The translations under genes and the position numbers were made by a program. From Bryoerythrophyllum caledonicum (lineage: Eukaryota > Streptophyta > Bryopsida > Pottiales > Pottiaceae): DNA of 64,000 nt. Where the stretch lies: the NCBI GenBank assembly GCA_963971425.1, contig OZ020523.1, forward strand, positions 9,668,867 to 9,732,866, read 5' to 3'. Shown here in pieces: positions 3,343 through 57,464 of the stretch; within the stretch, counting starts at the first letter, position 1, and each line of letters opens with the position of its first letter. Under the pieces are notes generated by a model, which was given only the letters and a program-made list of their open reading frames with translations, was not told where the DNA came from and made no database searches.

Positions 3343-3576
3343 GTGAAAATAGAGTTGAAACCCACACGTGCACAGAGCTCGCAAACTGCAAATCATTGTC
3401 GAAAATCTGTGCAACCCAATCACCGCAGACGATGTCGATCCCTCGAACTGGTTGATTCGATCAGGAATTCGGAGTACCGTCCCAAAATGTTTCTGGGTTA
3501 TTTCAATTCGGAGTTGTTTCGAGCGACGGAGAATGCGTTCGTGAAAGCTCTGGAAGCGCTGCAAAGCTCCGATTAG
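3343..3576 (+). other. Possible exon remnant, function not recognised
   Basis: An open frame of about 77 codons without an ATG start ends at TAG. Its second half (residues about 44-77, including YRPKMFLGYFNSELFRATEN) has normal protein-like composition, whereas the first half does not. Copy B retains only the upstream part and is deleted from the base matching about 3493. I do not recognise the family, and it may be a chance frame. Confidence 0.2.
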
Positions 3577-5066: not shown

Positions 5067-5225
5067 CCTCATCCCCGTTCCCATCTCCATCTCCTTCCCT
5101 AACCCCCCACGCCCGTCCACAACCACCGTCCCCAACCCCTCATCCATGTTCCCGTCCTTGTCTCCATCCCCAATCCCCATCTCCGTTTCCATCCCCGACC
5201 CCAGTCCCCGTCCCTATCCCCACTT
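5067..5225. repeat. C-rich minisatellite
   Basis: Degenerate short repeats of the type CCCNTCCCC/CCATCTCC run through this interval, and again at about 38773-38935 in copy B. The proline/serine-rich open frame across it is a product of the repeat and not a gene. Confidence 0.8.
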
Positions 5226-5603
5226 AAAAGCATAATTATACACTTTGTGATTCCAATTCCATTTTTTTGGTAATGGTGCGTACTATTACAGAAGTTAGTA
5301 TAATTACTATAATGGAAAAAGTAAGATTTTTGTTAGGGCTTACTTTCACAAATAATGGCTACAAACCCGACCTCATTTACAAATGTGTAGGTTCAAGGTT
5401 CACGTTCCATTGAACAACGAAATAATGCATCATATCCCACACCAAATAAGCTTCACCTCAAGGAGCATAATACCACCCCATACAAATTTCAGCCATCACT
5501 GATTTTTAGTCTGAAAGTAGAAAGTGCCTTCGAAATTGGCGTCCCTATTAAGGATAAAAATTATCATAGCATTCCCATGTCAGCAATTGGACAAATTTAT
5601 GTA

Positions 5604-6201
5604 CAGTACCCTCACATAACTATACGTGCTTTTTTGTTTATGTACGTTTCCACACTACACTGTTGCCAACTTTGGCACCCTCCTCCGGGCTGAAAATTTG
5701 TCAATTTACCATGAAATTATTGGCACAAGATCACTTCTATGTTGACAACATGTGTGTCAAAATTCAAGGTCAGAAGATGAATACAAAAAACCATATGCAA
5801 AATTGACCAAAATATGTAGCTATGTGAAACAATTTTGAATATCCTTTTTTGTATTCATCATATGGCCTTGGAATTTGGCACACTTGTTATAAACATAGAG
5901 ATGATCTTGTGCCAAAAAACTCACTGTATATTAAAAAAAATCAATCCTAGGGAGGGCCTCAAAGTTGGCAATTGTGAATGGCTCACAACTACACATCTTG
6001 GTAGATTTGAATATCTATTTTTGTATTCATCTTTTGCACTTGAAATTTGGCCCAAATGTTGTCAACATAGAAATGATCTTGTAACAACAATTTCATGGTA
6101 AATTGACAAATTTTCAGCCCTTGGGAGGTGTCAAAGTTGGTAGCAATGTAGTGTGGAAACATATTCAAGCAAAAAATACGTATACTTATGTGAGGATATT
6201 G
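5604..6201. mobile_element. TA-target MITE with long inverted arms (copy A)
   Basis: The element is flanked by TA at 5602-5603 and 6202-6203. The left end begins CAGTACCCTCACATAAC. The right end, reverse-complemented, begins CAATATCCTCACATAAG, and the similarity continues inward for over 100 bp. There is no coding capacity. The same element occupies 56802-57396 in copy B, so it predates the duplication. Its internal sequence recurs in the larger foldback element at 19387-20703, and its CAGTACCC end matches the ends of the Tc1-like transposon at 17666-19384. Mobilisation by a Tc1-type transposase is inferred. Confidence 0.8.
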
Positions 6202-6429
6202 TACAATACCAAATTGGGCAAATTCATGAATCTTTGTGTTTTTGTGCTCCATATTTCCATGTCCCGATTCCCAACCGACACCTTGTCATCTATCCATCTC
6301 CATTCAAACTATGTCTGTACGTGATCCAATCCGCTTGCCTATGCTTCAGTGGATTCTGTGGCTCCCACAGGATAAAGAAGAGAGGAAATCACTAGGTATG
6401 GAGCAGAGATAATCACGAACCCAGGGCGA

Positions 6430-35090: not shown

Positions 35091-35640
35091 AGTATTCGTC
35101 GTGATCGATAACCGGGGGGTGGGTGAATTGTGTGGTAGATATGCGTCTGATTTTATTCCAATACGATAATTTTTTGTTGAAGTCAAGCACTGACTAAGCA
35201 AAGACATTGACCTTCTTTCTCATTTTCAGCTTGTGTGTGGGAATCATGGCTAACTTTTTCGCTTCGCCCAAAACTATCAGCTCGACTTTTGAAGGCCATT
35301 ATTTTTGACGTAGGTTAGCCATGATCGGTTAGGTTGTGTGTAAGTTATCCAAGCATGAATCGTTCTGGAAAGGGAAAGCCCCAAAGTGGCATGAAAGAAG
35401 GGAAAATATCTCAGTGGTAGGATGCAAGCCATTGCACAAGAGAATCAAATAAGTTTGAGTACATGCAGGCCAACCCGAGACTTGGTCAACAACTAAGTTA
35501 TTCGTCGTGATCGATAACAGGGGGTGGGTGAATTGTGTGGTAGATATGCGTCTGATTTTATTCCAATACGATAATTTTTTCAAGCACAGATACCAACACA
35601 TTGACCTCTTTTCTCATTTTCAACTACATGTGTTATAATC
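35091..35640. repeat. Direct duplication at the left edge of copy B (period about 404 bp)
   Basis: 35091-35240 and 35495-35640 are near copies, both with TATTCGTCGTGATCGATAAC and the following AT-rich tract. Copy A has one at about 205-350 within the window. The extra left copy marks the edge of the duplicated segment. Confidence 0.8.
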
Positions 35641-38056
35641 AACTCTGAATTCTTCTTTGCACCTCAGGGGTGGATTACAATATAGACCAAGAGCCGTGAC
35701 CAAGGAAAATGGATTAATTCCATGGTCACACTTCATGGTCACACTTCCATGGTCACACTTCAAAAAAATGTAATTTTTAAAGCCCTTGGGACTCTCACTA
35801 AGTGTAAACCGAACTTGGACCGGGAGGAATGACCATGTACTAAAAAGTGAGCGTGCTGATTTTTTTAATGAATGCCTATAAAGGGTAGCATTGCCTAAAA
35901 TAACAAAGAAAATAAAACAAGCCAGAAAGACAAAAAGGGTGGCCGCCATTATATCTATAGTAACATTGGGCCCCTCCAAAAAACCAACCAAAAATAAAAT
36001 AAAATAAAATAAAAAATTCAATTTAAAAATAATAAAACGGCATTTTAGGCCCATGGTCTCCTCGTTGCAGCAATGAGAGAACCCTTTCTGCCTCTCTCAC
36101 CGCAAAATTCAGGGGACCCTTCAACATTATCCATTAGGCCTATTTCTAGGCCTTTTGAGGACCTCAAGTCCTTTGGTCACTTTTCTTTCTCCCTCGTAGT
36201 GTAAACCCAAGTCATCCTGGGAAAAGTCGATGGAGCCAATCACAAATTTTAGAGGTGCATGGGACGAGTTTTTGGTCCGTAGTGTAAACCGCCCGTAAGG
36301 GGACAATTTGTGAAAATGTTTAACACTATATACAATTTATTTTTGGCAAAACATCAAAATAGTTTTTTGGCAAAACATCAAAATATAATACAATTTATTT
36401 TTGTGAAATATCTCTATGGCAATGAAAGCTCGTAGCAAGAATTTTGGAGCTATCCATAATCCCCAACTTTGTACTTAGAAAAGCATAACTTTTTTTCTAG
36501 GGTCGGCAAGAGATAGTATTTCATTCCTATCAAGCTGAAAGTGTGCTGCATCTTTATAAAAAGTTTCAAAAGTTTATGATCAATATTTAAGACCAAAAAG
36601 ATCTGCCCTAAATGGAAAACGTCACCCTAGGAGGAAAAGGTCCTTTAGGGTTAGAAATTTATGGATTTTATATTTCTTACCATCATATTTTAACATTTTA
36701 TTTTTCAAATTACAATGTATAGAAGAGCTTGGTGGTCTCTAAGCTCAAGTTTGAAGCTTAACTCATACAACCATTGTTCACGATCACAACAAATATTTCA
36801 TGGTCATTGTTTCCAAAGCAACGCAAGATTCCGTAGAAAATGAAGCCCCACCACAGATTTAGCTCCCAAAGCATAGATCTGCAATTACAAACAACACTTC
36901 CATCACACTGAGTATAGTAATCCGGTGTCCCCAACGAGGCAATGCAATAACTTTCTTTCATTCCCCATCCTCAACGCCTCGTCCCCGTCCCCTACCACCC
37001 CACCCCCACCAACCATGTACTCATCTTTAACCTCTAAAGGATAAAGGCATTTTGGAAATTTGTACTCCATTGATTAAAAGCTACCAGGATGAATTTTAGA
37101 GCATGTGAGAACGTAGGATCTTCTTTTGAACTTATATGAGATGATGTGGTAATAAACTTGTAAGTGAAGCTTCTTCTAACTGCGTGTTGGGTAGGAGTGA
37201 GAGGGAATGTGGCATTTTTCTGTTGTAAGATTCGGTGTCAAAATGGCAAAATTGTAACTCACAGGTGCTCGCGAATTGGGGATGTGTAATCCACGATTGA
37301 AGACTGGGAATTCACAACATTTTGCAAAGTCAAGTCGATGTTGATGTTTCTGGAACCCATGTGAAGATTGTGGCAGAAAACATTACTTCTTGCGTCCATT
37401 GTCAGTAAGTCATGTGAACAATTCCAGGGTGAGTTGGAGTTGCATAATCCAGTTGTGAAGGAGGCTGAGAATGTAGAGTGCCCGCCCAGATCGTGAGTCC
37501 CGCCGATGGCAGACCACGCCGCAAGCCCTCCTATCAGATGCCCGCTTCCCGGATCAAGTGCGTGAGGTATCACCTACGCCACCCAAGGGTATCTCAACAA
37601 TTGGAATATTAGATTCTCATCCAAACAGAAGAGAGGAAGAGAAATTGATTGTCAACATTCCGTGAAAATAGAGTTGAAATCCACACGTGCACAGAGCTCG
37701 CAATCTGCAAATCATTGTCGAAATTCTGTGCAACCCAATCACCGCAGACGATGTCGATCCCTCGAACTGGTTGATTCGATCAGGAATTCGGAGTACCGTC
37801 CTGAAATGTTTCTAATGTGAAGTTGGATTTGCCGCTACTTTTTGTGAGCCCGGGAGTGAATTCCATGATGGTGTGTCTTGACCCATTGCGTTTGTGATTG
37901 GATTTAGGGCAGTCCATGTGTTTGGTTGGCAGGAGCCACACAAAAACCCACACCATCAGCTCACCAACCAAACAAATAAACAAAATTCACAAACCCTACT
38001 GTTCACGTTTTCACGTTCGTGGAAAACCTAGTTTCTGGTGCAAAAATTGTTGGGTC

Positions 38057-38277
38057 GGGCCAAACCTGGCCCCTATTTTGTCTTTGGATGGGGCCCTATT
38101 TATAGCAAGAGATTGTCCGCTGTGGTAAACAATAGCCATAGGCCCCAAATTTATCAAAAAAAATCCAAAAAAGCCTCTGGAACCCCCAAAATAAGAGGGC
38201 CAGAAAAATGACCCCATGCAACTAGGACGGGGCCCACCCTGGGTAATGACGAGCGAGGGGGTCAAATCTCCCTGGCC
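38057..38277. mobile_element. Partial copy of the inverted-repeat element seen at 58568-58840
   Basis: It shares GGGCCAAACCTGGCCCCTAT, GGATGGGGCCCTA and AAAATGACCCCATGCA with the complete element. The right end (GAGGGGGTCAAATCTCCC) is retained; the left TIR is missing. It replaces about 100 bp of copy A (about 4890-4985). Confidence 0.75.
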
Positions 38278-38339
38278 AATGCCAATGCCCAGTCACTGCA
38301 ATGAAGTAACCTCACAATTTTCATACGTGAGTGATGTAA

Positions 38340-38768
38340 TCATATGTCAGTGTTTTCATCATCTAGGGACCTTAGCCCATAATGTTCGAGAGTAGACAAC
38401 TGACATTATCTGTTTAACAAAGCAATAGCTCAAAGCATTGTCAACAGAGGTTTTGTTCATTTTTTCCCTTCCTTGAGGATTCTCTCAAAATCAGCCTAGC
38501 GCAGACTCCTTTGCCAACCCCTACTCTCCGCCTCCTATTCCCGCCTTCCAAACCCCTACTTTTGCTCTCGAGCCAGAGCTCACCTCTCCCTTCATCTCAT
38601 CGCTCTTCTACTGTGAGGTGGCACCACCGCACGGCCATAGGTTGTCCGTCTATACTTTCTACTAGAGTGACTAAAATATTGACATGTTGTCTCTAACGGG
38701 GCACCATAGCAACTTTTTTTCTTTCCTCGTCTCCAACGCCCCATCCCTATCTCTTTCCCCCAATGACC
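38340..38768. other. Block present in copy B only; contains a dispersed repeat
   Basis: Absent at the matching point of copy A (about 5052). 38510-38680 resembles 58940-59100 (CTCCGCC near its start, GTGAGGTGGCACCAC, CCGTCTATACTT). No gene is seen. Confidence 0.6.
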
Positions 38769-39149
38769 GTCGCCAACCCCTCATCCCCGTTCCCATCTCC
38801 GTCTCCGTCCCCAATACCCACCCCCGTCCACAACCACCGTCCCCAACCCCTCATCCATGTTCATCCATCCTTATCTCCGTCCCCAATCCCCATCTCTATT
38901 TCCATCCCCGACCCCAGTCCTAGTCCCTATTCCCACTTAAAAGCATAATTATACACTTTCTGATTCCAATTCCATTTTTTTTGTAATGGTGTGTAATATT
39001 ACAGAAGTAAGTATAATTACTATTATGGCAAAAGTAAGATTTTTGCTAGGGCTTACTTTCACAAATAATGGCTACAAAATCGACCTCATTTACAAATGTG
39101 TAGGTTCAAGGTTCACGTTCCATTGACCAACAAATAATGCATCATATCC

Positions 39150-42100
39150 GTTTGGCAGCGGGGGGGATGAAGACTGAGTGAGCTCCGTAATTTCTGGTGA
39201 GGAGGAGTGTGGGACTTAGCCGCAAATCGGACATCATAGGCCTCAAGGACTGCTAGACCTTGTCGGGAGCCCCTATTTTGCTTTTGATTTGATGCAAGGG
39301 TTAGGCCTAGGAAGCAGACTGTGTTGGAATGGCTCACAAGCTCTAGAACTAAGACTTAGTGAGGAGATCACGGTGTTTTGAAGGAGGATCTGTGGAGAGA
39401 TTAGATCTGAAAGTTTGGGAACTCATGTTGGACATAGATCTCTTCCTCATACACCAAAATACCTAGCTACCTTAGTCTTAGAGCACTTCCAGATCTGCAA
39501 GCCACCAACAAGTCCAACACCTTCTGACCCAGCGCTACAACATACAACATTGGAGAAAGGACCAGCAAACTGAAGATCTGGACAACTTGCATACAAGATC
39601 AGGCTATCTCTTACTCACACACTTTTTTCTCTTCCTTGCTTAAACTAATATTAATGTGTATTGTTTGCATATCTCTAGCACACACTACACTCACAGTCAC
39701 ACCGATTGATTGCTCCTTAGTGTGCACTTTCAGCCACAATAGTTACAACCACTCCGCACAAATGAAACATGTTCGTAGGTACAGCTTAACACAGGTAGCG
39801 AAATACTACGAAAGCTGTGAGCAGAAAGGTAGCGAAAGTTGTGAGCAGAAAATATACAAACGTAGTAATTGTGCGAGTACAACTCTAATGTTGAGTATAA
39901 TGTGGTCTCTACTAACAAAAAAACTGAAGTCCCTGCACAGTATAGTACTGCGCAGCAACGCCACAATGTGCCTCAGGCAACAATGCAACATCAAGGCGGC
40001 CTCTTCAAGACGACAGGGAAAAATCGAGATGGACGCTGGTAGCCGGCGATCGACAGTAGACACAACACTCGTTAACGGGCACCGACTAGCACCATTCCCA
40101 GGTACGCCACAAGCTCCACCTCCCATAACCGAGCAGCTTCCTACAGACACCAAAGACCAAGGCATCAATCCGCGGAGTCCAGCAACAAACTACCCAACCA
40201 TCACAGGACCGCCACAAGCCCCGCCTCCCAGTATTCAACGACGTCCTGCAGATACCAAAATCCAAGGCACCCACTCCCGGAGCCAAGCAACGACAATAAA
40301 CCAACATCAACAGAAAGACTACGCGAGAGAAGGACAGCGCGAGAGCAGGACGAACCGTAGCTGCGGCTTCCAGACGGGTTTGGCGCCCTGAAGACCAAAC
40401 AACATTACAACAGTCCAAAACTGGAACGCCGGCTCCCAACAGACGCGGGCTCTTAGAAGGCACCAGCTCCCATACTACAAGTACAATGAGACATGAACAA
40501 GAGTCTTTCTAGCAACAGAAGTGCAAGGCGAGACATGAAGAAGAATCCTTCCAGCAACAGCATTGCAAGGCGGATCAGAGACAACCCCGGCAATAAGACC
40601 CTCAGAACCTAGAGACACACCCATAAGACCTCATAGAAGACAGAAGTAATACAAACGTGGCCAAAAACGACTCACAACAGATCCAAGCTTAACCAAGGAG
40701 GAAGTCGGGGCAACGAGTCCAACGCCAGAAAACGGCGACCCCAACAAACGACAACACAAGAAAACGTCACAGCAGGCAACAACATCAACATCAGGTACGT
40801 CTCCTCACCTCCTTGATCATTCCATTGTCTTTCTCAACACATGGATTTGATAAATCACAGAATGACAATAGACTTAGCTGTAACCAACAATGCCGCATAA
40901 ACAACACCGGCAATAAGAACAGTCCAGAAAGGTGGCAACTGCTGATACGAAACCCTAGCCGCCTCAAGAACGATGCAATCAAGCTCCGAACGGATCCAGA
41001 CCCAAGAGAAGCACATTGCAACCGTCAAATCCAAATCGTACGGGTAAGAAATCACTCAGGTAAACTCAACGCTAGCCTCCAGCAACCTCCACAACAAAGC
41101 CCTTCATCGAAGTCAACTGAGAACTACATCGACATCGAAGGCAAATCAAGAAGGTATAAGATACGCTCCCACTCTCCCCACTATCCTTCTCATCTTAACC
41201 ATCTCTACCGAATGCCACTGGACGCTGCCCGTACCTGGAGAGGAGACCGTACCTGGAGTGGTGGATCGAAGGACTGCAAGTCGAGCCGAGCAGAGCCGCG
41301 CTTCCTCCTCTGTGACATATTCTTACCTCTCTCTTCTCATGTTGTTTCTTCCTTATGCTCCCTGGAAACACAATGTTGGATCCATCAGACCACTAACATT
41401 GAGTTGATGTCTCCTACACAGATTAGACAAACCTCACCTTGTCCGCGCAAGGTCGTGCGACACACCACAACTGCGGAAAACAGTATTTGCGAGACTGACC
41501 TTGAAGCCACCATCGCCCACTTCCCTCTTTCTTATTTTACTATTCAGTTCTTGCGCCCTACTCATTACGCACAACACCACAGACTTACAGACATTCACTT
41601 CATTGATTGCAGGAATCACACTACGCAAGAAACCCTAGGAACTCGGAAGGCGGAGGCAACGTCTATATCGAAAGTACAACCAGAGAAGCAGTGGCCGAGG
41701 GCAACAACCATATCAAACGCAAACAACTAAACAACAATCAAGAGATGCAAACAAGCAAGGCATCACCAAACACGGCAGGAGCGAAGGTGAAGCCGCCCTA
41801 CCACGTCCTAACCTCGGCAGGCCAAAACAAGTCGAGACGCGCTACACAGTGGCTCTTACAAGACCGGAGCAAGACGCTGCCTTCGTCCCACGCAACGGTG
41901 TGGAAGACTCCTGTGGGAGCCAACTGTGGGAGACTCCGCCGGCCTGGCTCGAAGGCGGCACTCTCTCCTGCCACCGAAACCCCTATAGCCGAGCCCAACA
42001 GGGTGCCGCATCTGCGCCGCAGCAAGAGAGAAGAGAGTACTCGGCGGCCAACTCCCGCCCTCTCCCTCGACTCCAGACCCCTGGGCACGGCGCAGTACCT

Positions 42101-42463
42101 GACCCCCAACAATCCAATAACCAAGCCCACGAATCCGATTCGTCCAGTTGCATCGTACATGTCCCACATCGTGCTTGGTTCACCCAACTGCCTACACCCG
42201 AGCGCACCCCCTTCCCCGCGCGACCTCCCACATCATAAGGTAAGATTTTCCACCACTCACAGTATTTCCGCTTTTTAAAAGTACAACCTGTGTTTAAAAA
42301 TCCCGCTTATGATTAATGATGTTATTGATGATAATGGTACTTTATTGTACTTTTCACCTATTATGCATGTTGTATTATAAGTTCTAGCTTAAAAACACAC
42401 CTCTCCTTGTTAGTATTACCTTCAGTAGGCCCACAAATTAAATTGTGGAATGAAGGTAATCTC
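39150..42463 (+). other. LINE 5' region, about 3.3 kb, with a possible intron
   Basis: It starts GTTTGGCAGCGGGGGGG directly after the target duplication. Long sense frames (39655-40391, 40813-41730, 41607-42278) are rich in Pro, Ser, Arg and Gln without recognisable domains. A consensus donor CAG|GTACGT at 40795 and acceptor GATTGCAG at 41612 could remove 818 bases. A second donor AAG|GTAAGA lies at about 42240. Long, possibly spliced 5' UTR is inference; an unknown ORF0 is the alternative. Confidence 0.5.
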
Positions 42464-44170
42464 ATGGTTAAAAGAGGCAAAGCTATACACAAACCCTTAA
42501 CTCAAAGGTACACTTCTTATTGCAATATGTCTCACTCAAGCAATGTTGCTTCTGCCGCCAAACAAATCTTTTTTAATGATGTTGTGGTCAATCGAGATGA
42601 TGATGCTTATGCTGCCCAGAAACGCAACCTAGATGGTTTGAATCCTCCTAGCCAGAAAAAGGCAAAGGCCACCTCCATGCCTAGACCTGAATTCTGGTTA
42701 GGGTTTCGCTCTCTCAACACTATTGCGAAGAGTAAAGGATTTCCCAAAATCCTACCTCTTAGCATAGAAGATTTGAGACTACGGGGCATGAAGGAGGAAC
42801 ATGCAATAGCCGACATAGAAGCGCTGCCATCATTCCCATATGTTGCACAAGAGGAGTGGCCAACATCAAGGCCTGATGGGATGAAAGGTAACCATTTTAA
42901 CTTGACACAAGTCCCAAGTGAAGTCGTGGTTGATGAGGATGGATTTGCTAAAGATTACCAAGTGTCAATTAACTTTGAAATTGGTGACCAAGTATGTGCA
43001 CGCAAAGTCATTCACACTAGGGTTGTGGAAAAGCTCAAAGAGTTGGAGATGCCTCTTGGCACAATATTGGGAGAACCAATTGCAATCTTTTGTCATCACA
43101 AATCGGAGAATTGGAGTGGGACAATCAAGCTCCACTTGATGAACCCGAAAGTAGATGCACGCGCTCTTCTACAAGGCGAGAAACCATTTATTCTCATTCT
43201 GAATGAGGGTATTCCGCACAAAGGCAAGGTATGTAAGTCCTATGACCCATTGGCTTCATCTAACAATCTCTCGGTGAAAGTGACTGGCCCAACCCTAGGG
43301 AACAAAGAATGGTTTACCATGCATGAGGAAATAGTTAAAGAGAGCTTTGCTAGGGGGTTCAACTTTGAAATTACTGGGGTAGAGAAAAAGGCATCCAATG
43401 AATTTGCATGGATAAAAACCACATCCCCTAAGATAGCTGCCATAGTCAAGAGTAACAAAGTGGCGTTTGCAAAGGAGATTTTTGTGCCTAACTTTGTGAA
43501 CAGAGGTAAAATGAGTGAGGATGAAAAATTGAAGAAAAATGCCTTAATTCTAATTGCCAAAAACCTTAGTAAAATTGAAACCATAGAGAAATTAGAAGAA
43601 GGACTAAAATCAAAGATTGGTGCAAACAACATCGTGAGCATGTATTTCAAACTTGAGAATGGTAAACACGTGGGTACATGCAATGTACAATGTCTCAATG
43701 CTGCCGTATACAAGAAGCATGTGAAACAAAATGTAGAAATTCATGGGAAGTATGTTGACTTTTCTCCTCACCCTAGAAGCCTCGATGGTATGAACCCCCC
43801 TACCGCAAAAGAACTCAAAAGGTTGGGCCTAACGGATGTGAACTCCGCCGCTATGAATGCAGTCATAGCCATGGAGAATGCACCAAACCAATTTAGTGCC
43901 AAGGATCTTAACCAGATGGTCGAAACAGTGGTTAACAAGGGAACACAAAACACTATTGCAGAAGTCCGAAAAGAAATGATAGCCATGAAAGGTGAAATTA
44001 TTGAAGAAGCAAGAAACTATGCCGACATGGTGCAAGAAACTACCAAAAAAGTATTGAGAAGTGAAATGACATTCCTTAGAAAAAACATCATACAAACTAT
44101 TATGGAAGAAGAAGAGAGAGTCAGCCAAAGAGTACAACTTACCATTGAAGGGATGGACACGACAAACTAG
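42464..44170 (+). CDS. LINE ORF1 protein (RNA-binding-like, C-terminal coiled coil), intact
   Basis: The frame is open from 42407, but the first ATG is 42464; a second candidate is 42527 (MSHSSNVASAAKQ). The protein of about 568 residues probably coats the element RNA. The middle is basic and mixed. Residues about 350-455 of the ATG-started protein (ALILIAKNL...NIVSMYFKLENGKHVGTC) have the beta-alpha-beta pattern of an RRM-like fold, but I see no certain RNP motifs. The last about 90 residues are a charged coiled coil (EVRKEMIAMKGEIIEEAR), as in other LINE ORF1 proteins that trimerise. No zinc knuckle is seen. There are no internal stops although ORF2 is badly damaged. It ends 213 bp before ORF2 in a different frame. 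Confidence 0.75.
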   Translation: MVKRGKAIHKPLTQRYTSYCNMSHSSNVASAAKQIFFNDVVVNRDDDAYAAQKRNLDGLNPPSQKKAKATSMPRPEFWLGFRSLNTIAKSKGFPKILPLSIEDLRLRGMKEEHAIADIEALPSFPYVAQEEWPTSRPDGMKGNHFNLTQVPSEVVVDEDGFAKDYQVSINFEIGDQVCARKVIHTRVVEKLKELEMPLGTILGEPIAIFCHHKSENWSGTIKLHLMNPKVDARALLQGEKPFILILNEGIPHKGKVCKSYDPLASSNNLSVKVTGPTLGNKEWFTMHEEIVKESFARGFNFEITGVEKKASNEFAWIKTTSPKIAAIVKSNKVAFAKEIFVPNFVNRGKMSEDEKLKKNALILIAKNLSKIETIEKLEEGLKSKIGANNIVSMYFKLENGKHVGTCNVQCLNAAVYKKHVKQNVEIHGKYVDFSPHPRSLDGMNPPTAKELKRLGLTDVNSAAMNAVIAMENAPNQFSAKDLNQMVETVVNKGTQNTIAEVRKEMIAMKGEIIEEARNYADMVQETTKKVLRSEMTFLRKNIIQTIMEEEERVSQRVQLTIEGMDTTN

Positions 44171-44416
44171 GTTGGATAAACAACGAGATAGCAACTATAT
44201 ACCTAATAGTATATAACTATACTTATACTATAAACTTCAAAAAAATACGAGTATATCTTTATACTCAAAAGTATAAAAACAAAAAACTAATATATACCAA
44301 AGTATACATATATACTACATACAAAAAATATAAAAGAAATAAAATAGAAAAAGAAAATACAATAGAAAAAGAAAATACAAAAATGAAAAAAAAATACAAA
44401 AGCAATAAAAGAATCC

Positions 44417-44654
<238 letters not shown>

Positions 44655-44700
44655 CTCCACATTCCGCCCACTAGTAACCATAAACGTTACCAATTGCAAA

Positions 44701-44748
44701 CTATTAATTATACTTTGCGGAGATATAGAAACTAACCCCGGCCCAATG
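44701..44748 (+). other. 2A-type ribosome-skipping motif in LINE ORF2
   Basis: In the ORF2 frame the codons read LLIILCGDIETNPGPMP. This contains the complete 2A consensus D-(V/I)-E-x-N-P-G-P preceded by the usual hydrophobic, Leu-rich run ending in G. In known 2A peptides the ribosome fails to form the Gly-Pro bond, here between GGC 44740-44742 and CCA 44743-44745, releasing the upstream product and continuing. The upstream product would be the 120-residue poly-Q leader. 2A motifs are known at the N-terminus of ORF2 in several animal and trypanosome non-LTR elements. Confidence 0.85.
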
Positions 44749-46869
44749 CCAAATGTCTTCCACAACCATCCAAAAACACACAAAAGACTATCAAAAATTT
44801 ATTTCATTCCGAATACTGTAAAACTCCACCCCGAATATCAGCATCTAGCATCCTCATTTGCGCCACTCCTAAATATTAATCTCTCTTCACCAAATATATT
44901 CCAGCCTCTACCCCACATTTCCCGCTATATACACCTCAAAAACAACCACCCACCCACACATATTTTATTCGCCATAATTACCACCCTCCACCCTTCAATA
45001 GACGAATGCAACTATATCATCAACCAACATCCTACCAACACAAACCCAACATATTGGACAAATATACTACTAAACACCCTATCCTCTCTACATAATCCAC
45101 CTGAAAGACATATAAATACAACCCACCCATACACTAAATTCCTAGAAGTAAATCAACACCTTGTTGAACACAAAACCTCTCTACATAATGACCTATATAA
45201 CTTTATCCATAGCCATACCTCACCCCCTTCCCCCGATGAACTACAACTCAAATTTCCCTACTTCCCGCACAATCTTATCCTAGAAGCTCTTAGATGCTTT
45301 GAACCACTTCAAGCTTACACACACCCCACCCTGACACCCGCCTACATTTCCCCCCCACTTTGTAATCACAACAATATAGATAACAGAAACACATACATAA
45401 CTATATGGAACGCCTCAACGTTAAACACTGCTTTACCATGCATCCAAAATCTAACCACCCACACCAACACTCCACCCACCATAATTGCCATACAAGAAAC
45501 TAAAATGACCGCTACTAAATCCACAAAATACATCCAAAAAATATTTCCCGATTACAAACTCATATTTAATAACACTCATTCCCTCACACGGTGTATCCAA
45601 CAACGAAGGCCATACACACCGGCAAGAGGTGGTCTACTCATGCTCATACACCAATCATATGCCTTCCCCGGGAATATTACTAAAATCCCTACCCCGGCTA
45701 ATATATCACCATATCTTCAAACTATTGAAATTACTAATCGTCCCCTCCAACCATGGCTCATTCTCCATTTATACATGCCCTCGCACATAGAAGACTCTAG
45801 GCTTATTCCGGAGATCCAACACTCCATCATCTCACAAATAAATACACACACCAACCATACAATAATAATTTGCGGAAACTTTAACCGAGACATCGCCCTT
45901 ATTGGACGACAAAACGGAGAGGTTGATACCCCCCGACACTATAAGAAAACCCCATTTTTGGTGATGTCTTCTGCAGACGCATAATCACTTCGGTGATGCC
46001 TTCAAAACAGAGCAGTATGTCTAGCTAGACATGGGTATGTCTTCTGCGTCTTTTGGGTACTGTAGCAACTTCGGTGGCATGAAGAGAGCCGTGTCTTCAA
46101 GAAGACGGGAAGATGTCTGCAGAGACGTGGATGTCTTTGCGGATGTCTTTGTAGACATTCCCGGAGACATCAAAGTGCCACGTTGGCAAGGGATTCCGGT
46201 TTGACCATGGGTATATGTCTGAAAGTCACTGGTATGCGAGGTAAAATGCAGCCCAAATGTAGAAAATTAGCATAATGGGCAGTGGTTTGCATGAGTAAAG
46301 GAAAAGTCTTCATCCAATAAAATATTGTTTCCTTTTTTGTTCATTAAAAAAGTATTTTGAATTCCTTATAAATTCGAAATATTAATTTTTTGATATGAAT
46401 ATTCTATTTTCAGTAGTTGTCATTGGTCCATTTTTAAAAATAATATTAAAAATTTTTAATTAAAATTTTTAATTACTGAATATATATATTTTTGAATAAA
46501 TTAATAATATGTAATAACAAATTATTATATTTAAATTAATAAATTGTTTTATATTCAATTAAAATTATTAAAATATTAAAATATATGTATTTAAATATTA
46601 TTAAATTATTAAAATAGAAATGCTGTAGAAAATAGCATTTTATAATAAAAGTCAATTTTCCGATATTGATAATTGAATAAACACGTGGACATATTGTTCA
46701 CTTAATAATTTACAGCTCCTTATCTACATGGCAAAGAAAACTCCATGTCGGACGAGCTGACACGTCATAAAATGTCTAGGCGGATGTCTGTAGAGACATC
46801 CGACTGACTTTGACTATAATAATGATATAATGTCTCCGTAGACGTCCTAGAAGATGTGCGTAAGGACGT

Positions 46870-47707
46870 CTACCGAGACATCCCTTTAGACGTCCTCACA
46901 GACATTGCTTGTCTAGAACGGTAGTCGGCGTACCAATAAGTGACTCTGTCACTACTCCTCTTGGATTTCAGCATTGTTGACTGTATTTGTTGCGGCTGTA
47001 ACATAGCATCCTCCCAAGGGCGGTGGTCTTCGAATTGCCTCTGTCTCCTGAATCTCTGGTTGTAAGCCTCAAAAGTCCGCGTCATCACCGATTGCGATTT
47101 CACTTGCCAATGGCTGCCGATGTTGTATTGTTGTACGCCGACCTTGGACCACTGTTCGGCACACGATCTTCCATCTGCGTCTGCTAGGGTCATCTAAGAA
47201 GAAAACCTGTTGACAATGCAAGGGAAATGCAAATGAATCCGGATGCACTTTGCCGTCCATGTGGTTGAAGTTCGCTACGTTGAATCCGTACTTGTCGCGC
47301 TTAATATTGGGCACTCGCACATCCTTTGAGGGTCTTACCTATTCGCAGAGCAACACCGTGGTGCAGTGATTCAGTAATTACAACTCGAGTATTTCCTCAA
47401 TATACTCCACATGCTCCGCAGTATGGTCAATGAGCCTCCCATTCTGAATCCCCAAACGCAGTTGTTGTGTATAGGTTGCCACTATACAAGAATCTTGAGT
47501 AACGAGACCCCCCTCGGAAGTCCAAACTCGCATATGGATCTCGAATGCGCTCATTTGATGATGTGAGGTTGCAAATCGCTCCGGGGGACATGAGTATCGT
47601 ACCACGTCCTCATCCAAACGTTCACCAGCCCCTTCTGCTTGCAGCGCCCGTGCTCTAAGTGAATTTGCAAAGCTTGGCCAACATTGGAACATTTGAAAAG
47701 ACATCAA
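46870..47707 (-). pseudogene. CACTA transposase C-terminal remnant (DUF4216-like)
   Basis: On the minus strand 47707-47378 and 47320-47069 are in the same frame and together read as a DUF4216-type domain: HVEYIEEILEL, two stop codons, then RVPNIKRDKYGFNVANF and QQVFFLDDPSRRRWKIV. That domain follows the catalytic part in plant CACTA TNP2-like transposases. After a frame change, 47193-46870 continues with an uncharacterised basic tail. The catalytic domain is absent. Domain assignment is from pattern memory. Confidence 0.6.
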
Positions 47708-47920
47708 TCACGACATCGAATTGTAAATGAAGATGTCTAAGATGACGTCCATGAAGATGTCTATAATGAAATTCATAACCATCAACTAGGATGAATTTCA
47801 TCGAGTTCACTGAATGAACAGAGGCGGCTAGGGTTAGCAGCTGCAGCCATAGTTAGGTCATGAGACCTTTAAGTAGAATTTGAGGCTGCACAAAGCTCAC
47901 TTTGGCCTTCATTTCTCTAA

Positions 47921-48090
47921 GTAGTTAGAGTTTAGAATGTAGAGGTTAGAGTTTTAGAGTGTAGACTGAGTTTACAAGTTAGGATGTTAAAGTTTAGAGT
48001 GTAGAGGTTAGAGTTTTAGAGTTTCAGAGTGTGTGGTTTAGATGTTAAAGGTTTAGAGTTTGAGAGTGTTAGAGTTTAGAGTGTAGAGGC
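47921..48090. repeat. Degenerate tandem repeat around GTTTAGAGTGTAGAGG
   Basis: Short units of GTTTAGAG/TGTAGAGGTTAGAGTTTTAGAGT recur about ten times with variable spacing inside the CACTA element. It is non-coding. Confidence 0.8.
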
Positions 48091-48959
48091 AGCAAAGCAG
48101 AAATAAAGAAAGAGGCGTGCAAGTAGGTGAGTGATTGCACAATATAATGCAGGCCCGAATGAGACTCAAGTGAGCCACTGCACGACATATGAACAACACG
48201 GGAAATCTTGAAGATATTTTCAAAGACGTCTTCGAAGACGTCCAGTCAAACGCGTCAACATTTCCATGAGCGTCTGAGATGTCTGCTAGAACATCCCAGA
48301 AGACATTTTGTCACATATAGCAACTTGTATTCTACTTTGAGGGACATGTGGAACATTCACATAGTGGTGAGATTAAGACTAACAGTTTTTTGGCGTTAAG
48401 AAGTTAACCATGCACACATAGGTTGTCCTGCTAACGGGATTTATAGCAATTTTCTTCTTATGTTAAACCCTTGTTTAATTGCATGCGTTGTTGGCTTGTT
48501 GAACATGTGCAGTGTTGGACATGCGCACGACCATGTGGGAGTAGCGACAACCAGTGATGACAGAGGAGCAATTTGAAGTTGTGGGTACGTAGTACATCGT
48601 TGATGTAGATAGAAGTATTTTTTTGATGTAATTTTTTTATTAGGTAACAAACAATATTGTTATAACAACTAATTTGTGATGTCACCTCGTGTTTTGAGTA
48701 TGCAATGAAAATACTTACTCTTGACGAGCAGCCATCAATATTGTAGACATTTTGAACATTGCGTACTGTGATGTCTATATATGTCTCTGAATGTTATGTG
48801 AGATGTATTGGAAGATGTCTAGAAAAGGAAGGGAAGACATTCCGATGTCACAGTGGATGTTTGAATGGTAAGTGGAGCATGCTTCAAAAGACGTCTACAT
48901 ATAGCTGTGGATGTCTTGTAAGACATCCTATACAAGTCGTCATAGATGTTTTCTAGGAC

Positions 48960-49310
48960 ATTTGTGCAATCACGTCCTCTCGAACATCTTCTCAAACGTC
49001 ATATCAAACATCATCTGTAGCATCTTCTTGAACATCTTTTGAAACGTCATAGCAAACATCATCTCCAACATCTTCGCAAACATCTTCTCAAACGACATAG
49101 CAAACATCATCTTGAACATCCTCACGAACATCCTCCCAAACATCCCCTAAGACATCCTCTAAAACATCCTCCACTACATCACTGGAGCAGTACCATGTCT
49201 CAAGCGATGTCTCGGCAGATGCTACTTTAGTTCAGAAGACATCACTTGAGACATCCTTGAAGACATTGTGGATGTCGGCCCAAACATCTGGGATGTCTAT
49301 CAGGAACATA
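48960..49310. repeat. CACTA subterminal array of (A/G)ACATC motifs
   Basis: Between 48970 and 49190 an (A/G)ACATC core recurs about every 9-15 bp (GAACATCTTC, CAAACATCAT, AAGACATCCTC). The mirrored core GATGTCT is scattered at the other end (45970-46170, 46785-46910). In En/Spm such subterminal repeats bind the TNPA regulator; that role here is inferred from position. Confidence 0.75.
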
Positions 49311-49344
49311 TTTCGAGTATAAAAACCCCCAAAACGATGCTGAC

Positions 49345-49570
49345 GTGGCATGCCACGTCATTTTTCCGGGTCCACGTTGGATTTCCCGCCTGCCACGTCA
49401 TGCCATGTCACATTTCCCATGTGCCATGTCAAATTTTGGCGCCGCCACGTCATTGTATGTGGGACCACGGAAAAGTGCACATAAGGATGAAATTCATTGC
49501 CATGTGGCACTGCCCGTTCACTTGGCGCTGATGTGTCTCTGACGTGGCTCCCACGTGGCACAGACTTTAC
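49345..49570. promoter_or_regulatory. Cluster of CACGTCA / CACGTGG motifs in the CACTA subterminal region
   Basis: TGACGTGGCATGCCACGTCA (49341-49360, a 20-bp palindrome), then GCCACGTCATGCC, CGCCACGTCATTG, TGACGTGG and CCCACGTGGCAC follow within about 220 bp. ACGT cores of this kind are plant bZIP sites. They could drive element transcription; no transcript is visible. Confidence 0.5.
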
Positions 49571-52500
49571 CCTCCCAAAATTACCTCTAGACGTCTTAGA
49601 CACAGAAATGTCTTCCGTGTCTTCCCGGATGTCTTCTTAGACATCCACCTTGTCTAAGATGTCTTCGCGCTTGCAAGACATGACCGTAGATGTCTTTGCG
49701 TTTTTTGAGACATCACTGAAGACATGACAAAAAACACGGTTTTCTTATAGTGCCACTTGACATAGATTATCAATGGCATAATTATACGGTTGACCTAGAA
49801 TTACATCTAATCCCAACCGACACACAATACTCTCGTCAAGGTGGACTTAACTACACACACACTAGCCTAATTGATGGATTTTACATTAAAACACCTAACC
49901 ATACCCGATATACATCTAACACCAATACCACAACCAATTTAAACTCGGACCACTTTCCAATCCAACTCAATATACCTCACAACACCCTTATAAGTAGACC
50001 TCCCACAACCATCAACTTGAACGATATTAAAATACTTAACCCTATCTCTAAAGAAAACATTGATAACTTTAATACAATATTCTTAGAAAAGAACTCACTA
50101 CAAATAGACTCCCTTACACGTATTCTTTCTAACCACCAACACCTCACACATACAATGGCAAGAAGCCTGCACGACTCATGACAAAATTATTAATGAAATG
50201 TCTACTATATTAGAAAAAACCTGTAAAGCGCCCCCGATCCCACAACTCACACCTTGAACCTCAAAACAAGGAGGGTATCTCCCGAGAAAACTAGCCAAAA
50301 AGTGGAAACAACATCTTGTCACATACCACACTATTCGTAAAACAATTTACATTGCCAAAACTATCCAAAACTGGCAAACCCACCCCATACTCTCCAAACT
50401 ACAAAACCTACGTCATCCTCAAATCTCACAAATACCACCACCCAATACCCCTCACGAAGAGTGGCTAAAAGACATTGCAATCATTGCAAAAACTGCCAAC
50501 AAAGATGCTCGGAAAATTACTACAAAATATGCAAGAGAATGTATCAAAAAAGCCATTTCTAAATACCGTCAATTATACGAAACTAGCCCAAAAAAGATTA
50601 ATAGAAAAGTCTTTAAGAATAACACAAACCTGCCACTAGACTGTATTTTGGATCAAAACAATAACATTCTAACAAGCCCCGATGACATCGCAAACGAAAT
50701 ACATCTTCAACAATCCATAAATAATATACCATCCACCCCCCCCATGCCACCTCCAACCACAACATACACCTACATGCACGTGCGGAGTTAGACAATACCC
50801 GTGGCATGATTTGGATGGATTTACCATTGATAAAAGAGGCGAACCGACAATACCCCTCCACACATATTATAATAGAGACACATACGACATGTGCCTAAAA
50901 AATTTGGGAACCAACAAAGCCCCCGGACCGGACCATATACCTAACTCAATTCTAAAAAACATGCCTCCAAGATTCCATGACCTCCTATCACTATTCTTCC
51001 TTCACTGTTACAAACAAAAATCCATTCCCGCATCTTGGAAAACAAGTCTAACAATCTTATTATACAAAAAGGCAACCCATCCGTGCTACCTAACCACCGA
51101 CCTATTGCCTTAGCTAACACCATTTACAAGTTATATACTAGCACACTAACATCAATATTATCGGCCTATGGAGAAAAACACCAAATACTACACGAAAGCC
51201 AGGAAGGGTTTAGAGCCGAGAGAAGTACCACCCGACAACTTCAAACCCTCATAGCAGCTCTTGAAGATGCAAAATTCACTAGTAAAGACATTTACATACT
51301 CTACATTGACTTCAAAAACGCATTTGGTTCCATTGACCACCCTCGATTGCTAGCCATTATAAGTGATCTTGGGTACCCGGAAGACGCAGTCACATTGGTT
51401 GGTAATATATACTCCCAATCTACCACTTCATACACTGGAGAATTCTTTGGTAATACACGCCCTATCCCCATCCAACGTGGTACCATCCAAGGAGATACAT
51501 TGAGCCCATACCTCTTTATTATTTTTCTAGAACCTCTACTGAGATGGCTCCAAAGAGGCAATAATGGCTACACATTTGGCACTTCAAAAATCACCGTAAA
51601 CTCGGCCGCATATGCTGACGATCTAGCGGCCATCTCCAGACGCCTTAAATCACTCTAAATTCAATTAGACAAAATAGACAAATTTTGTTTATGGTCCGGA
51701 ATGGAACTTGGGGTCCAGAAATGTGCCGTAACCGGATGCCCAAACAAATCCAAAATAAATCCGACCGCCTTCAAAGCCCTTATTCAAGCTACCAATATCC
51801 ATTATCGTAATCAACCAATTCCGGTTCTTAACCAAAACCAACCCTACATATACCTTGGAATAAACCTAGTCCCATCTTTAAAATGGAAAATTCAAATTCA
51901 TGCTACTACTACAAAACTTATTAAACAATGCAAGGAACTTACACTTTGTCCGGCCACATTGCAACAAAAAATAAAAATGATTGATACCGTCATACGACCG
52001 GGTGTCTCATACAGTTTCTATGCGGTCCCTTATTCCATGCCCGCCATAAATAAACTCGATAAAAAAAATCATAGCCATACAAAAGAAAGTATGCGGACTC
52101 CCTAACTGTACGCCTAATATCATAACACAACTCCCCCACAAACTATTCGGATTATAAGTTTTTTCCCTCAAAAATGCCTATTTACGTTGCATTGGAGAAC
52201 AACTCCAAAATGCACTTAACGATAAAGGACGACTAGGACTAATTTACAGTGGACTCCTTCGGCACATCCTTGCCATTTATGGAGGAGCACAATACCTCCA
52301 AAGACTTAAAAAATCTGATTGTCTTCGGTCCCCATTACCCGCACACTTTTTCTACTCAAAACAAAAGGTCAAATATTTCTAAAAAGCACACTAGAAGATT
52401 TACTACTAGACTCCACACCGCTTGAACAAAATTGGGCAAATGAAATACATAACCTCCCTAGACTTGACCGACAATTATCCAACAAACTCCTACAAAAACT

Positions 52501-53632
52501 CTTCTCTGCAAACATTACTGATCTAAAACAAATTACACTACCAAATGAAACACACCTTATGGACGACAAGAGCTACAAAACACTCTATGGTACCCCTCAT
52601 AAATTAATAAAAAGTGCACTAAACATTGCCAAACAGTTATTTTGTCACCCTCCATGTCTCCTTACATGCCCCAACCCTTGCACCAATCACGCCCCACCGT
52701 ACACACTTAAAGACTCATATATCATCAATCACAATGACATCCACCCCAACACCAACCCCCCACTAATTCCCTCCAAACCCGCCACATTCATGACCATATG
52801 CCCCTCCACCACAAATATTAAAAAACCCTTCCATACACCCAATAAATAACATAACCGCGCACAGACATAATGAACACATTGACTCCAACAAAATAAGCAA
52901 ACAATATACGTCGTACCTATGCCAGTGGTTCCACAATAACAACACCTACGCCAAATGGCTCCCACAAAGGAATCTTTTCCCTTGGCACAACCCAAATACT
53001 TCCTTACATAACACCGAAATCCTCACACAATACTACCTTAGAACTCAAAACAGTTATTACCTAAATATCATACAAATACATCACCCCCAAGCACAACCTT
53101 GAGATAGAAGATTTGTCACACCACCCCTTATTATCCCCCTTCTTAACATCTTTACAACTGAATGCAACCCAGAAACGGACATCCGAGCACAAACAAATAC
53201 AATCAAAATACAACAAGACAATGCCCACATATACGAAGGGAATGGTAGACATCTAATAACCATACCACTCGCTAGACTACAATGGCTGTGGAACCAATAT
53301 CACAACGCATTACTAACCCCCATTAACATCGAACCAATACCCCAAACATTCGAAACCGAAATTGTTTGGCTATACCAAAGATATAACTACCGAATACCCA
53401 AAAATGACCCCCTCAAAAATGCACACTACACATTACCCGATCCTATCTTAGACTACCTTATTACATCCCTAAATATCACACATTCATACTTCTCATCCCC
53501 CGTTACATGCTCCACAAAATCTCAAAATTTTACTCTCCATTCGAACGAGATAAGATTTTTGGGTCTCTTGGAAAAGCCTTTGATTATAAGTGGAGTGGAA
53601 TAGGCCTTGTACACCCTCACAACGAAGAAGAA

Positions 53633-54406
53633 GAAGAAGAAGAAGAACGCCGGTCTCCCGAAGGAGACCGGCGTGAATAAAGTGTCTGTTCGTTCCACTA
53701 CTAAGACCATGTCCACCGGACAAGGAATTAGTAAGAAGGAACTACTTCCCCCTCTCGAGGGTAGACACTATGTAACGGGTAGCCAGAGACCCGCCAAGCA
53801 AGACACCCAACCAACTAAACATCCATCTTACCAAACAAGTAGCCAAAAACACAAACAAACAAGCAGGAAGCCATGAGCCACAAGACTAATCAGTCAAGAA
53901 AAATCGAAGCGGGAGAAAAATCAAGGGGGGTCTTGTGTATCGGGAAGGGCTTGGTTGTTTTCAATTTTGCGTTTGTGTAGTAAAATAGACATGGCATATT
54001 GAGTAGCGATGGTGTTAATGTTTTTAAAGGTGTTTTTAATTGTATCAATGGGTATTTTGAAGGTATCTTCAAGAGTCTTTATAGATGGGATAAAGGTGGT
54101 GGCACGAGCGCCGGATGTGATTACAACAAGGGGGTCCACATTCCATCCTAGGGCGATGATGTCGTCAATAAGAGGTTGGTATTTATCTATTTTATTTTGG
54201 ATTGTTTCCGGGGAAAATCTATCGTTGCAATATGTGAATTCAATGAATTGAATGGTGTAGTCTTGGTTGATGTTATCGGGTGGTGGGTCATTGTATGGTA
54301 AGCCTTTAACGCAAAGGATGTCTGGTTTGAGCCTGGCGTTGCAATGACATCTTTGGGTCATACACGAGCATGGGAGTAGCCAAGGGGGGACTGTATTCTC
54401 TTGTGG
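53633..54406 (-). mobile_element. 5'-truncated LINE of the same family, inverted inside the LINE
   Basis: 774 bp on the minus strand, corresponding to the last about 725 bp of the host LINE (55897 to the tail). It is flanked by 14-bp duplications ACAACGAAGAAGAA (53619-53632 and 54407-54420). Its tail, (TTC)n on its own strand, is the GAA run at 53624-53647. It encodes the C-terminal restriction-like endonuclease with an intact KPD motif (KPDILCVKG), where the host LINE has KSD. It differs at many residues from the host LINE and so came from another family member. It interrupts ORF2 between GLVHPH and ETQQAIHWAC; the frame is continuous without it. Confidence 0.93.
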
Positions 54407-56580
54407 ACAACGAAGAAGAAACACAACAAGCAATACATTGGGCATGCCTAGCGGCAAATAATGACCCCAACGACAATATCACCATTATTATCACTCCCGA
54501 CACTCATTGGTACCACAACCCTAACCCACACTTAGGCCCATTCCCGGACTCCCACATCATAATACTATTTGAAGCCGACTCCATGACTTACAAAGAACCC
54601 ACTATACCACCGCAAATACAAACACCCCGCCTTGAACCAACAACCCTACGTATCCTATGTATACACCAACAAACTCGTGAAATAGGTACTCCGGAAAAGC
54701 CTCACTCATCTCACTTTGATAGCAAAAAATCTAAACATTAACAAGGTATACACTGCAATTGCCCTCCCCACACCCATCTCAACCCGTGTAAACCGCAACA
54801 AAAAATGGTCTAAAACCCCCCACACAAACATCTCCACATCACCAATTACCGAACTAACCCTCCCCCTCTCTTACTACCAAATTAATATAGACCTTAAATT
54901 TGACCCCAACTTTAGCTACTACACTGACGGCTCTTTCAAAGAACCAATCGAAGTAAGCCCGGGACATTGGCATCGAGAGAAAGCCGGTTATGGGATATAC
55001 AATTCTACCAAACAAATTAAATTAGGTAAAAGACTACATGGGCTCCAGAATATTCTAAGAGCCGAAATGATGGCTATACACAAAACCCTTAAAATAATCA
55101 CCACTCAATACCCAAACGAACCGGCTCACATTTTTACAGATTGCATAAATGTATTATATCTCCTTAATACACATATTAAACACCCTACTTTACACAATAG
55201 TCACCCGGATAAAACTATCCTTACATCTATGGTTGAAATGCTCCAAAACCGTACACAGATTACTACACTCCGTAAAGTCCGTGCTCATACTAATTTCGAC
55301 AGCAATGAACAAGCCGGCAAACTAGCAAAGGAAGGAAGAGAAAAAACCCACAAGAATGCCGAACACCCATACGAACACGCCCATGCCACCCCATATTACT
55401 TTCATAGATATGAATGGCCTTCTATGGGTGAAACTCCCGATAAAGGCCCCGTACGATTCTTGGACAAATACCTCAAAAAACATGATCTTGTAAATAACCT
55501 AGAAAAACTTAAAGAAAACTTCCCCAATATTGATAAATGGACTGGCAACCCAAACATTCATAATGTTCTATCCAATAATTTCTGGAAAAACCCCATTATA
55601 ACGGATCCACAAATCACATGCCTAATCAAATTCCGCACCGGGCAATATATGGGCAATGCCCATAAACAACTCTTCTTTGGAATAGAAAGATTCCCTACAA
55701 TTACATGTCCAATTTGCAACACCACGGACCCAGCTACATGGCTACATGTCTTACTCCAGTGCCAAAACCCCCATATACACTCACTAATTGTTAAAAGACA
55801 TAACAAAGCCGTATGGGCTATTCGTAAACTACTTATATCATCAACCAAATCCCGGTGTTTCATTTTCATGAATGACGGAACCTTTAATGACAACCCACAA
55901 GAAAATACGGTCCCTCCTTGGCTATTATCCTGCATATGTCATACTCAAAGATGCCACTGTAATGCAAGATTCAAATCAGACCTATTATGTGTTAGAGGAC
56001 TATCATACAAAGACCCCCCACCAAACCACATAGTCCCTAGTCTCACCATCCAATTTATTGAATTCACATATTCCATTGATAGATTCTCTCCGGACACTAT
56101 TGCAAACAAAACAAATAAATACCAACCACTACTTGACGATATTCAAGCACTAGGATGGAAAGTAGACCCCCTCATTGTCATCACCGCGGGTGCTAGAGCC
56201 ACCACCTTCATCCCCTCAATGAGAACCCTTGAAGAAACATTTAAAATCCCCATCACTTCAATCAAAACCACCTTTTCAAATATTAACACTATTGCAATTC
56301 AACATGCTATGTCGATACTCCTACATAAACGTAAACTTGAAAACAACCAACCCCTACCCGACGCTTCGAACCCCCCTTTATAGATCTACACCCGCATTTG
56401 CATTTCACCGCACTTGCCCTCCCTCTTTTAGGACTTTTTGGGACCTTGGGTCCTTTTTATTCTGGCTACTTGTTAGTGGGTACATAGTGTCTACCCTCGA
56501 AAGGGGGAAGTAGTTCCATACTACTAACCCATGCCCGGTGGGCATGGACTTAGTGGTGGAATGAACGGACACTTCACTCA

Positions 56581-56624
56581 CGCCGGCCTCCTACGGGGAC
56601 CGGCGTTCTTCTTCTTCTTCTTCT
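56581..56624 (+). other. LINE 3'-end hairpin and (TTC)n tail
   Basis: 56581-56605 folds as CGCCGG ... CCGGCG with loop C(TACG)G, followed at once by (TTC)n. The equivalent at 53648-53673, read on the minus strand, is a perfect 11-bp stem closed by C(TTCG)G. Both loops belong to the very stable UNCG class. Position at the 3' end fits a structure recognised by the reverse transcriptase when priming. Confidence 0.75.
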
Positions 56625-56801
56625 TGCATCATATCCCTCACCAAATAAGCTTCACCTCCAGGAGCATAATACCACCCCATACAAATTTCAGCCATCACTA
56701 ATTTTCAATCTAAAAGTAGAAAGTGCCTTCGAAATTGGCGTTCCATTTAGGATACAAATTATCAAAGCATTCCCATGTCAGCAATTGGGCAAATTCATGT
56801 A

Positions 56802-57396
56802 CAGTACCCTCACATAACTACACGTGCTTTTCCTCATATACATTTCCACACTTCAGTGCTGCCAACTTTGGCACCCTCCTTAGGGCTGAAAATTTGTCAA
56901 TTTACCATGAAATTATTGGCACAAGATCACTTCTATGTTGACAACATGTGTGCCAAAATTCAAGGTCAGAAGATGAATTCAAAAAACCATATACAAAATC
57001 TATCAAAATATGTAGCTATGTGAAACAATTTTGAATATCCTTTTTTGTATTCATCATGTGGTCTTGGAATTCGGCACACTTGTTGTAAACATAGAGGTGA
57101 TCTTGTGCCAAAAAACTCACGGTATATTAAAAAAATTAGTCCTAAGGAAGGTGTCAAAGTTGGCAATTGTGAATGGCTCACAACTACACATCTTGGTAGA
57201 TTTGAATATCCTTTTTTGTATTCATCTTTTGCAATTGAAATTTGGCCCACATGTTGTTAACATAGAAATGATCTTGGAACAACAATTTCATGGTAAATTG
57301 ACAAATTTTCAGCCCTTGGGAGGTGTCAAAGTTGGTAGCAGTGTAGTGTCGAAATGTATTCAAGCAAAAAATATGTATACTTATGTGAGGATATTG
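56802..57396. mobile_element. TA-target MITE (copy B)
   Basis: Same element as 5604-6201, flanked by TA at 56800-56801 and 57397-57398. It begins CAGTACCCTCACATAAC. Confidence 0.8.
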
Positions 57397-57464
57397 TACA
57401 ATACAAATTTGGGCAAATTCATGAATCTTTGTGCTTTTGTGCTCCATGTTTCCATGTCCCCGTT

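Follow-up and report, generated by a model that had tools for sequence, protein, structure and literature searches.

Most long interspersed nuclear elements (LINEs) encode a single type of endonuclease. The Dualen/RandI group combines an apurinic/apyrimidinic endonuclease (APE) and a restriction-like endonuclease (RLE) within one element (PMC3636483), and its position, with both nucleases, has been taken as evidence that the APE replaced the RLE (PMC4640811). These elements were reported from green algae (PMC4438587, PMC3747384, PMC8226300), where they end in (ATT)n or (CTATTT)n tails (PMC3747384), and in a 2025 paper also from cryptophytes (PMC12747079). RNase H is found in Dualen/RandI and also in plant L1 elements (PMC4640811). 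Here we describe a LINE with both nucleases in the moss Bryoerythrophyllum caledonicum, located in a stretch of 64,000 nucleotides (GenBank assembly GCA_963971425.1, contig OZ020523.1, forward-strand positions 9,668,867 to 9,732,866; hereafter the window, whose own numbering is used throughout). We read the element, which spans 39150..56624 on the plus strand, as very probably a dead, full-length member of a moss lineage within the Dualen/RandI group. Sequence comparison and modelling establish its boundaries, the predicted order 2A-APE-RT-PCIF1-like-RNase H-CCHC-RLE (RT, reverse transcriptase), its position in the RT tree and constraint on its RLE. A first-pass annotation had proposed a dual-endonuclease Dualen/RandI LINE in a land plant, and this overall reading was right, the land plant being specifically a moss.

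Like the Dualen/RandI elements of green algae, the moss element has an APE and an RLE, an RNase H, an RT near that of R2 and a simple-repeat tail, here (TTC)n. It differs from them in its moss host, its own branch in the RT tree and a 2A motif with a polyglutamine leader. In ten pieces of the window no Josephin or other protease family of Pfam was matched above cut-off, although two relatives carry Josephin (P0135 and P0164; such handles denote proteins of our relative set). Algal Dualen reportedly contains a cysteine protease domain, as described by Kojima and Fujiwara in 2005. With R2 LINEs the element shares RT neighbourhood as well as the linker, CCHC finger, RHN motif and RLE fold, whereas it adds an APE, an RNase H and a separate open reading frame 1 (ORF1). 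With plant L1 LINEs it has in common the APE, the two-ORF layout and the RNase H, but it differs in RT clade, RLE and PCIF1-like domain.

Boundaries and insertion history of the element

The element is flanked by a 12-bp target-site duplication, TGCATCATATCC, at 39138..39149 and 56625..56636. Both ends are fixed because an empty paralogous site at 5188..5704 (plus strand) carries this word once and lacks the LINE, with 94.0% identity to the left and 90.7% to the right flank. The window contains a repeat of about 6.3 kb twice (1-6265 versus 35290-39149 plus 56625-57460), whose aligned pieces are 92-96% identical; the empty copy is the one at 1-6265, which also contains additional sequence near 1476-2421 and 3494-4647. 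The coordinates given by the first-pass annotation, 39150..56624, thus hold nearly to the base, and its estimate of about 12.9 kb for the uninterrupted element agrees with the 12871 bp that remain after subtraction of two later insertions (17475 - 3816 - 788).

The first of these insertions is a CACTA-like DNA transposon of 3816 bp at 45937..49752, with inverted ends CACTATAAGAAAAC and an imperfect 3-bp duplication, across which the relative P0131 runs colinear (tblastn). It contains repeats with a 12-bp period at 48960-49175, and its longest stop-to-stop frame is at most 111 codons. The second, on the minus strand at 53633..54420, is a 5'-truncated relative, made up of part of the RLE, the 3' untranslated region (UTR), hairpin and (TTC)n, and including the right copy of its own 14-bp duplication (left copy at 53619..53632). 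Over 468 bp its DNA is 75.6% identical to that of the main element. ORF2 pieces matched by P0131 and P0186 are colinear across both inserts. The 3.2 kb preceding the ORF1 frame have no similarity elsewhere within the window, so that an additional insert may lie there. Besides the inserts, we counted eight frame changes in ORF2 from the tblastn pieces of relatives and at least three stops within the matched stretches, which mark this full-length copy as dead.

Main and nested copy both terminate with a hairpin followed by (TTC)n, in the main copy at 56581..56605 and 56606..56624 (plus strand). None of 200 shuffled sequences folds as well as the main 3' UTR (z -3.9), and a search of Rfam gave nothing reaching the gathering score. 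For stringent-type LINEs, stem-loop recognition has been reported (PMC5135761). The target of the nested copy is a GAAGAAGAA site, which could pair with that copy's own tail. In a further difference from R2 LINEs, the two insertion sites of the lineage in the window have no common target sequence.

Coding regions and the two endonucleases

ORF1 (42464..44170, plus strand, as all coding features of the element below) had been called intact in the first-pass annotation; it is open for 568 codons from its first ATG and matches no Pfam family above cut-off. The leader of ORF2 contains the 2A-like motif CGDIETNPGP at 44716..44745, also pointed out beforehand, which is kept in two close relatives (CGDIEPNPGP in P0193, SGDIQPNPGP in P0131); D.E.NPGP motifs are present in P0193 and P0180. 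Near the ORF2 start and ahead of the 2A motif lies a nearly perfect (CAA)80 microsatellite encoding polyglutamine (44416..44654). This tract is absent from P0193 and so may be a recent expansion.

An N-terminal APE with the motifs WNAST, ETK, GNFN and SDH had been expected, and all four (the second as QETK) were found. The CACTA-like insertion splits the domain into an N-terminal half with WN, ETK and GNFN at 45397..45936, also covered by tblastn of P0131, and a C-terminal half with SDH at 49753..50139. A profile of the relatives' APEs matches both halves, with E values of 6e-35 and 6e-14 in a search space of just the two half sequences, while neither half alone matched a Pfam APE family. The APE lies N-terminal to the RT, as in Dualen/RandI elements, and its presence means that the RLE is not the sole endonuclease, as it is in R2. 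The RT follows at 50745..52066 in two frames (PF00078, E 1.3e-23; 72-77% identity to P0121).

RNase H and CCHC finger were likewise found where they had been predicted, after the RT. The RNase H at 54914..55339 matches PF00075 (E 5.3e-10), as is typical of the Dualen/RandI group, and the R2-type CCHC finger, followed by RHN, occupies 55706..55804. The RLE, too, is located C-terminal to the RT as in Dualen/RandI, and P0186 runs colinear along the window from RT to RLE. The active-site stretch (KSD..., E, K..KY) at 55973..56122 belongs to an R2-like C-terminal domain at 55676-56383. Across 13 diverse RLEs, CCHC and PD...E...K are invariant or almost so, and the active-site residues are kept in most of 62-70 aligned relatives. 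By fold and by profile the C-terminal domain resembles R2, which was matched by the wider RLE profile A3, so that the PD-(D/E)XK-type assignment made in the first pass stands. Two details of it did not: the Glu had been placed about 34 residues on and sits 27 residues past the Asp in the main copy (the same in the nested copy, counted by eye from the translation), and the last motif of the nested copy is K-x2-KY rather than K-X3-KY. Pfam gave a single weak match for the RLE of the window, L_protein_N (E 0.026), below cut-off.

Phylogenetic position and alternative origins

A search with the RT returned 97 proteins, four of them at 67-77% identity over about 90% of the query and some shorter ones at 69-81%; the rest are diverse, with Haematococcus lacustris, Pleodorina starrii and Parachlorella kessleri among them. 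With the C-terminal piece as query, 119 proteins at 39-74% identity were retrieved. Pattern scans of genome contigs (25 matches) and viral contigs (95 matches), one scan each, yielded no relative by tblastn. Fragments of LINEs of this kind appear in metagenome-assembled genomes assigned to Candidatus Nitrosocosmicus and Agrobacterium (P0096, P0151), probably as eukaryotic contamination.

For the careful RT tree, 40 rows were chosen from 100 prepared ones, comprising the window, four references (three R2 and human L1) and 35 relatives, with the root at the midpoint and R2 and L1, but no RTE, as named outside groups. A dual group of 23 rows forms one side of a single branch (support 100/98), and within it the RT of the window belongs to its own clade of five rows (100/100). 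R2 is next to join the dual group (98/94), and L1, with Cannabis, Beta and human, stands apart (100/100), so that the RT is not within the L1 clade. The same arrangement appears in a quick tree of 63 rows, where R2 is less well supported (SH-aLRT 86). The outermost row of the dual group, on a long branch, is the MMETSP transcript P0192, which contains RT, SET and Ulp1 protease domains. An RT phylogeny had been suggested as a check by the first-pass annotation; the one built here, with R2 and L1 as references, places the window outside L1 and in the dual group beside R2, and both nucleases together with the RT clade support membership in Dualen/RandI. Haematococcus, Pleodorina and Parachlorella served here as proxy references for Dualen.

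The best-surviving alternative, an R2-group LINE with RLE only that gained its APE independently and stands outside the Dualen group, draws on the joining of R2 to the dual clade and on R2 being the closest solved structure for both RT and RLE. We consider it very improbable, because members of the same clade have both nucleases in the same order (APE, RT, PCIF1-like domain and RLE in 8 of the 97 proteins by our home-made profiles) and the tree groups its three R2s in a separate clade (100/99). By the same profiles, 49 of the 97 show only APE and RT, yet the absence of a domain means little here, as many of these proteins are fragments and the list includes other LINEs. A little less probable still is contamination or transfer, with a green-algal or protist element assembled into the moss window. 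The nearest organism-named relatives from the RT search are indeed green algae; against this, the element is inserted in a repeat that is present in duplicate, empty, in the same window as a moss-type resistance gene, a second family is nested within it, and its C-terminal part has the 119 relatives mentioned above, few of them organism-named. An ordinary plant L1 with APE, RT, RNase H and zinc finger and a chance RLE-like C-terminus deserves hardly any credence: RNase H also occurs in plant L1s (PMC4640811) and the Pfam zf-RVT finger in some L1 rows (P0201, P0213-P0216), but both RT trees rule out an L1 origin, and the R2 fold match, the R2 profile match and the conserved active-site residues rule out a chance RLE.

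Several observations weigh against our reading of the element as a whole. The Dualen link is built on the named green algae and on the literature, with no labelled Dualen sequence. The copy is altered in two motifs, GNFN in the APE, where the close relatives P0121, P0124, P0131 and P0193 have GDFN, and KSD in the RLE, where most relatives have [KR]PD (Pro in 65 of 70). With the narrower profile A1, no R2 was among the best 60 of 99 PDB matches. RNase H chains rank above R2 in the fold-match lists, since the folded model contained both domains. The synonymous divergence of the RLE (dS = 1.38) makes its constraint ratio only a rough one. Finally, the AlphaFold2 (AF2) model of the PCIF1-like region of P0116 was poor; Foldseek gave 419 matches at E<=10 and none at E<=0.001, and among the best 50 fold matches of P0116 (Foldseek and VIA) RNase H chains lead and PCIF1 does not occur.

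A PCIF1-like domain between RT and RNase H

A domain related to PF12237 lies at 53322..54502 (approximate ends) and is split by the nested insertion. In the window itself the piece 53103-53600 reaches only E 0.0022, below cut-off, while 52803-53623 and 54343-54732 share 46-60% identity with P0116/P0186 (tblastn). In many relatives PF12237 is found between RT and RNase H (E 1.6e-12 in P0116, 5.5e-14 in P0145, 3.5e-10 in P0130), with matches below cut-off in P0140, P0166 and P0169. All 16 members of alignment A2, selected from proteins already having a PF12237 match, show it at E<=0.01, and a profile of 16 moss-type proteins matches PCIF1 in PDB (6irx, E 6.6e-4; 6irv, E 0.04). An iterated home-made profile detects the domain in 33 of the 97 RT-search proteins and in 29 of the 119 C-terminal-search proteins, whose query begins downstream of it. 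The match of the window to this profile (E 2.6e-14) is partly circular because the iteration file included the window's own translation, and our conclusion rests on Pfam and tblastn instead. Among the 97 proteins 15 have an RLE, and all 15 of these carry the PCIF1-like domain.

PCIF1/CAPAM is a cap-specific m6Am methyltransferase, and mutants of its catalytic NPPF loop are inactive (PMC10544176). The LINE domain belongs to the same sequence family, but it sits in ORF2, its NPPF loop is degenerate and no WW domain appeared in Pfam scans of relatives. Relatives read ANPEY, ANPPS, FNPPN and others at this position, moss-type rows mostly HPHN, as does the window. As NPPF is not kept, we infer a domain that binds rather than methylates.

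Accessory domains in retrotransposons have been described (PMC6338049), and cytosine methyltransferases are known from LINE/DIRS elements of Symbiodinium and Gypsy elements of Klebsormidium (PMC5890265). These also carry a methyltransferase-family domain, but theirs is a C5-cytosine DNA methyltransferase of another family, borne by ORF1 in the Symbiodinium LINEs. In the literature that pairs retrotransposons or algae with PCIF1 or N6-adenine methyltransferases, judged mostly by the titles of part of it, we found no description of a PCIF1-like domain in a LINE; the founding Dualen paper (Kojima and Fujiwara 2005) may already mention such domains.

Upstream of the PCIF1-like domain, 52803..53099 may speculatively be a chromatin-reader-like (PWWP/chromo) module (PWWP E 0.003 and Chromo E 0.11 for 52794-53099). 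Between RT and PCIF1-like domain, relatives have Chromo (P0130, E 3.4e-4) or PHD (P0153, E 1.2e-7; P0157, E 0.0017). The PHD of P0153, both Josephin domains and the SET and Ulp1 of P0192 pass the Pfam cut-offs, which PWWP, Chromo and the P0157 PHD fail to reach.

Genomic neighbourhood

The resistance gene at 26409-29720 (minus strand) encodes a nucleotide-binding leucine-rich repeat (NLR) protein with RPW8, NB-ARC and leucine-rich repeats (LRRs). Its best match, overall and among named proteins, is from Ceratodon purpureus (53%, E 9e-181), with weaker named matches including Sphagnum, Physcomitrium and Marchantia among the best 120 of 423; a piece of the gene had no match in the plasmid collection. 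The LRR array is a long run of similar 24-residue units (72-bp period, 24.5 copies, 80% matches). A Tc1-like transposase ORF at 17889-18908 (minus strand) is open for 340 codons (DDE_3, E 8e-16; HTH_Tnp_Tc3_2, E 8e-14).

Proposed mechanism and significance

In an active member of this lineage, the 2A site would separate the ORF2 protein from its N-terminal leader, and the protein would recognise the 3' hairpin and UUC tail of the element RNA. One nuclease, most likely the APE, would nick the target and the nick would prime cDNA; the R2-type linker, CCHC finger and RLE would keep hold of the target and cleave its second strand, while the RNA would be removed by RNase H. The PCIF1-like domain would probably bind the capped 5' end of the element RNA without methylating it.

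Of all parts of the element, the PCIF1-like domain is the most interesting and also the least settled. Its occurrence in every RLE-bearing protein of the RT search suggests a cap-handling step, which to our knowledge is not known for LINEs. A tentative idea, which we hold to be rather unlikely as a whole, is that a cap-recognition domain of PCIF1/CAPAM type was acquired early by dual-endonuclease LINEs, which use it to hold or mark their own RNA at its 5' cap. Integration by two nucleases would thereby be tied to sensing of RNA integrity or of the template end, and the moss lineage would show that the same machinery reached land plants as well. With a constrained RLE and with APE motifs conserved in close relatives, the moss lineage extends the Dualen group into land plants and provides material for testing the role of each nuclease.

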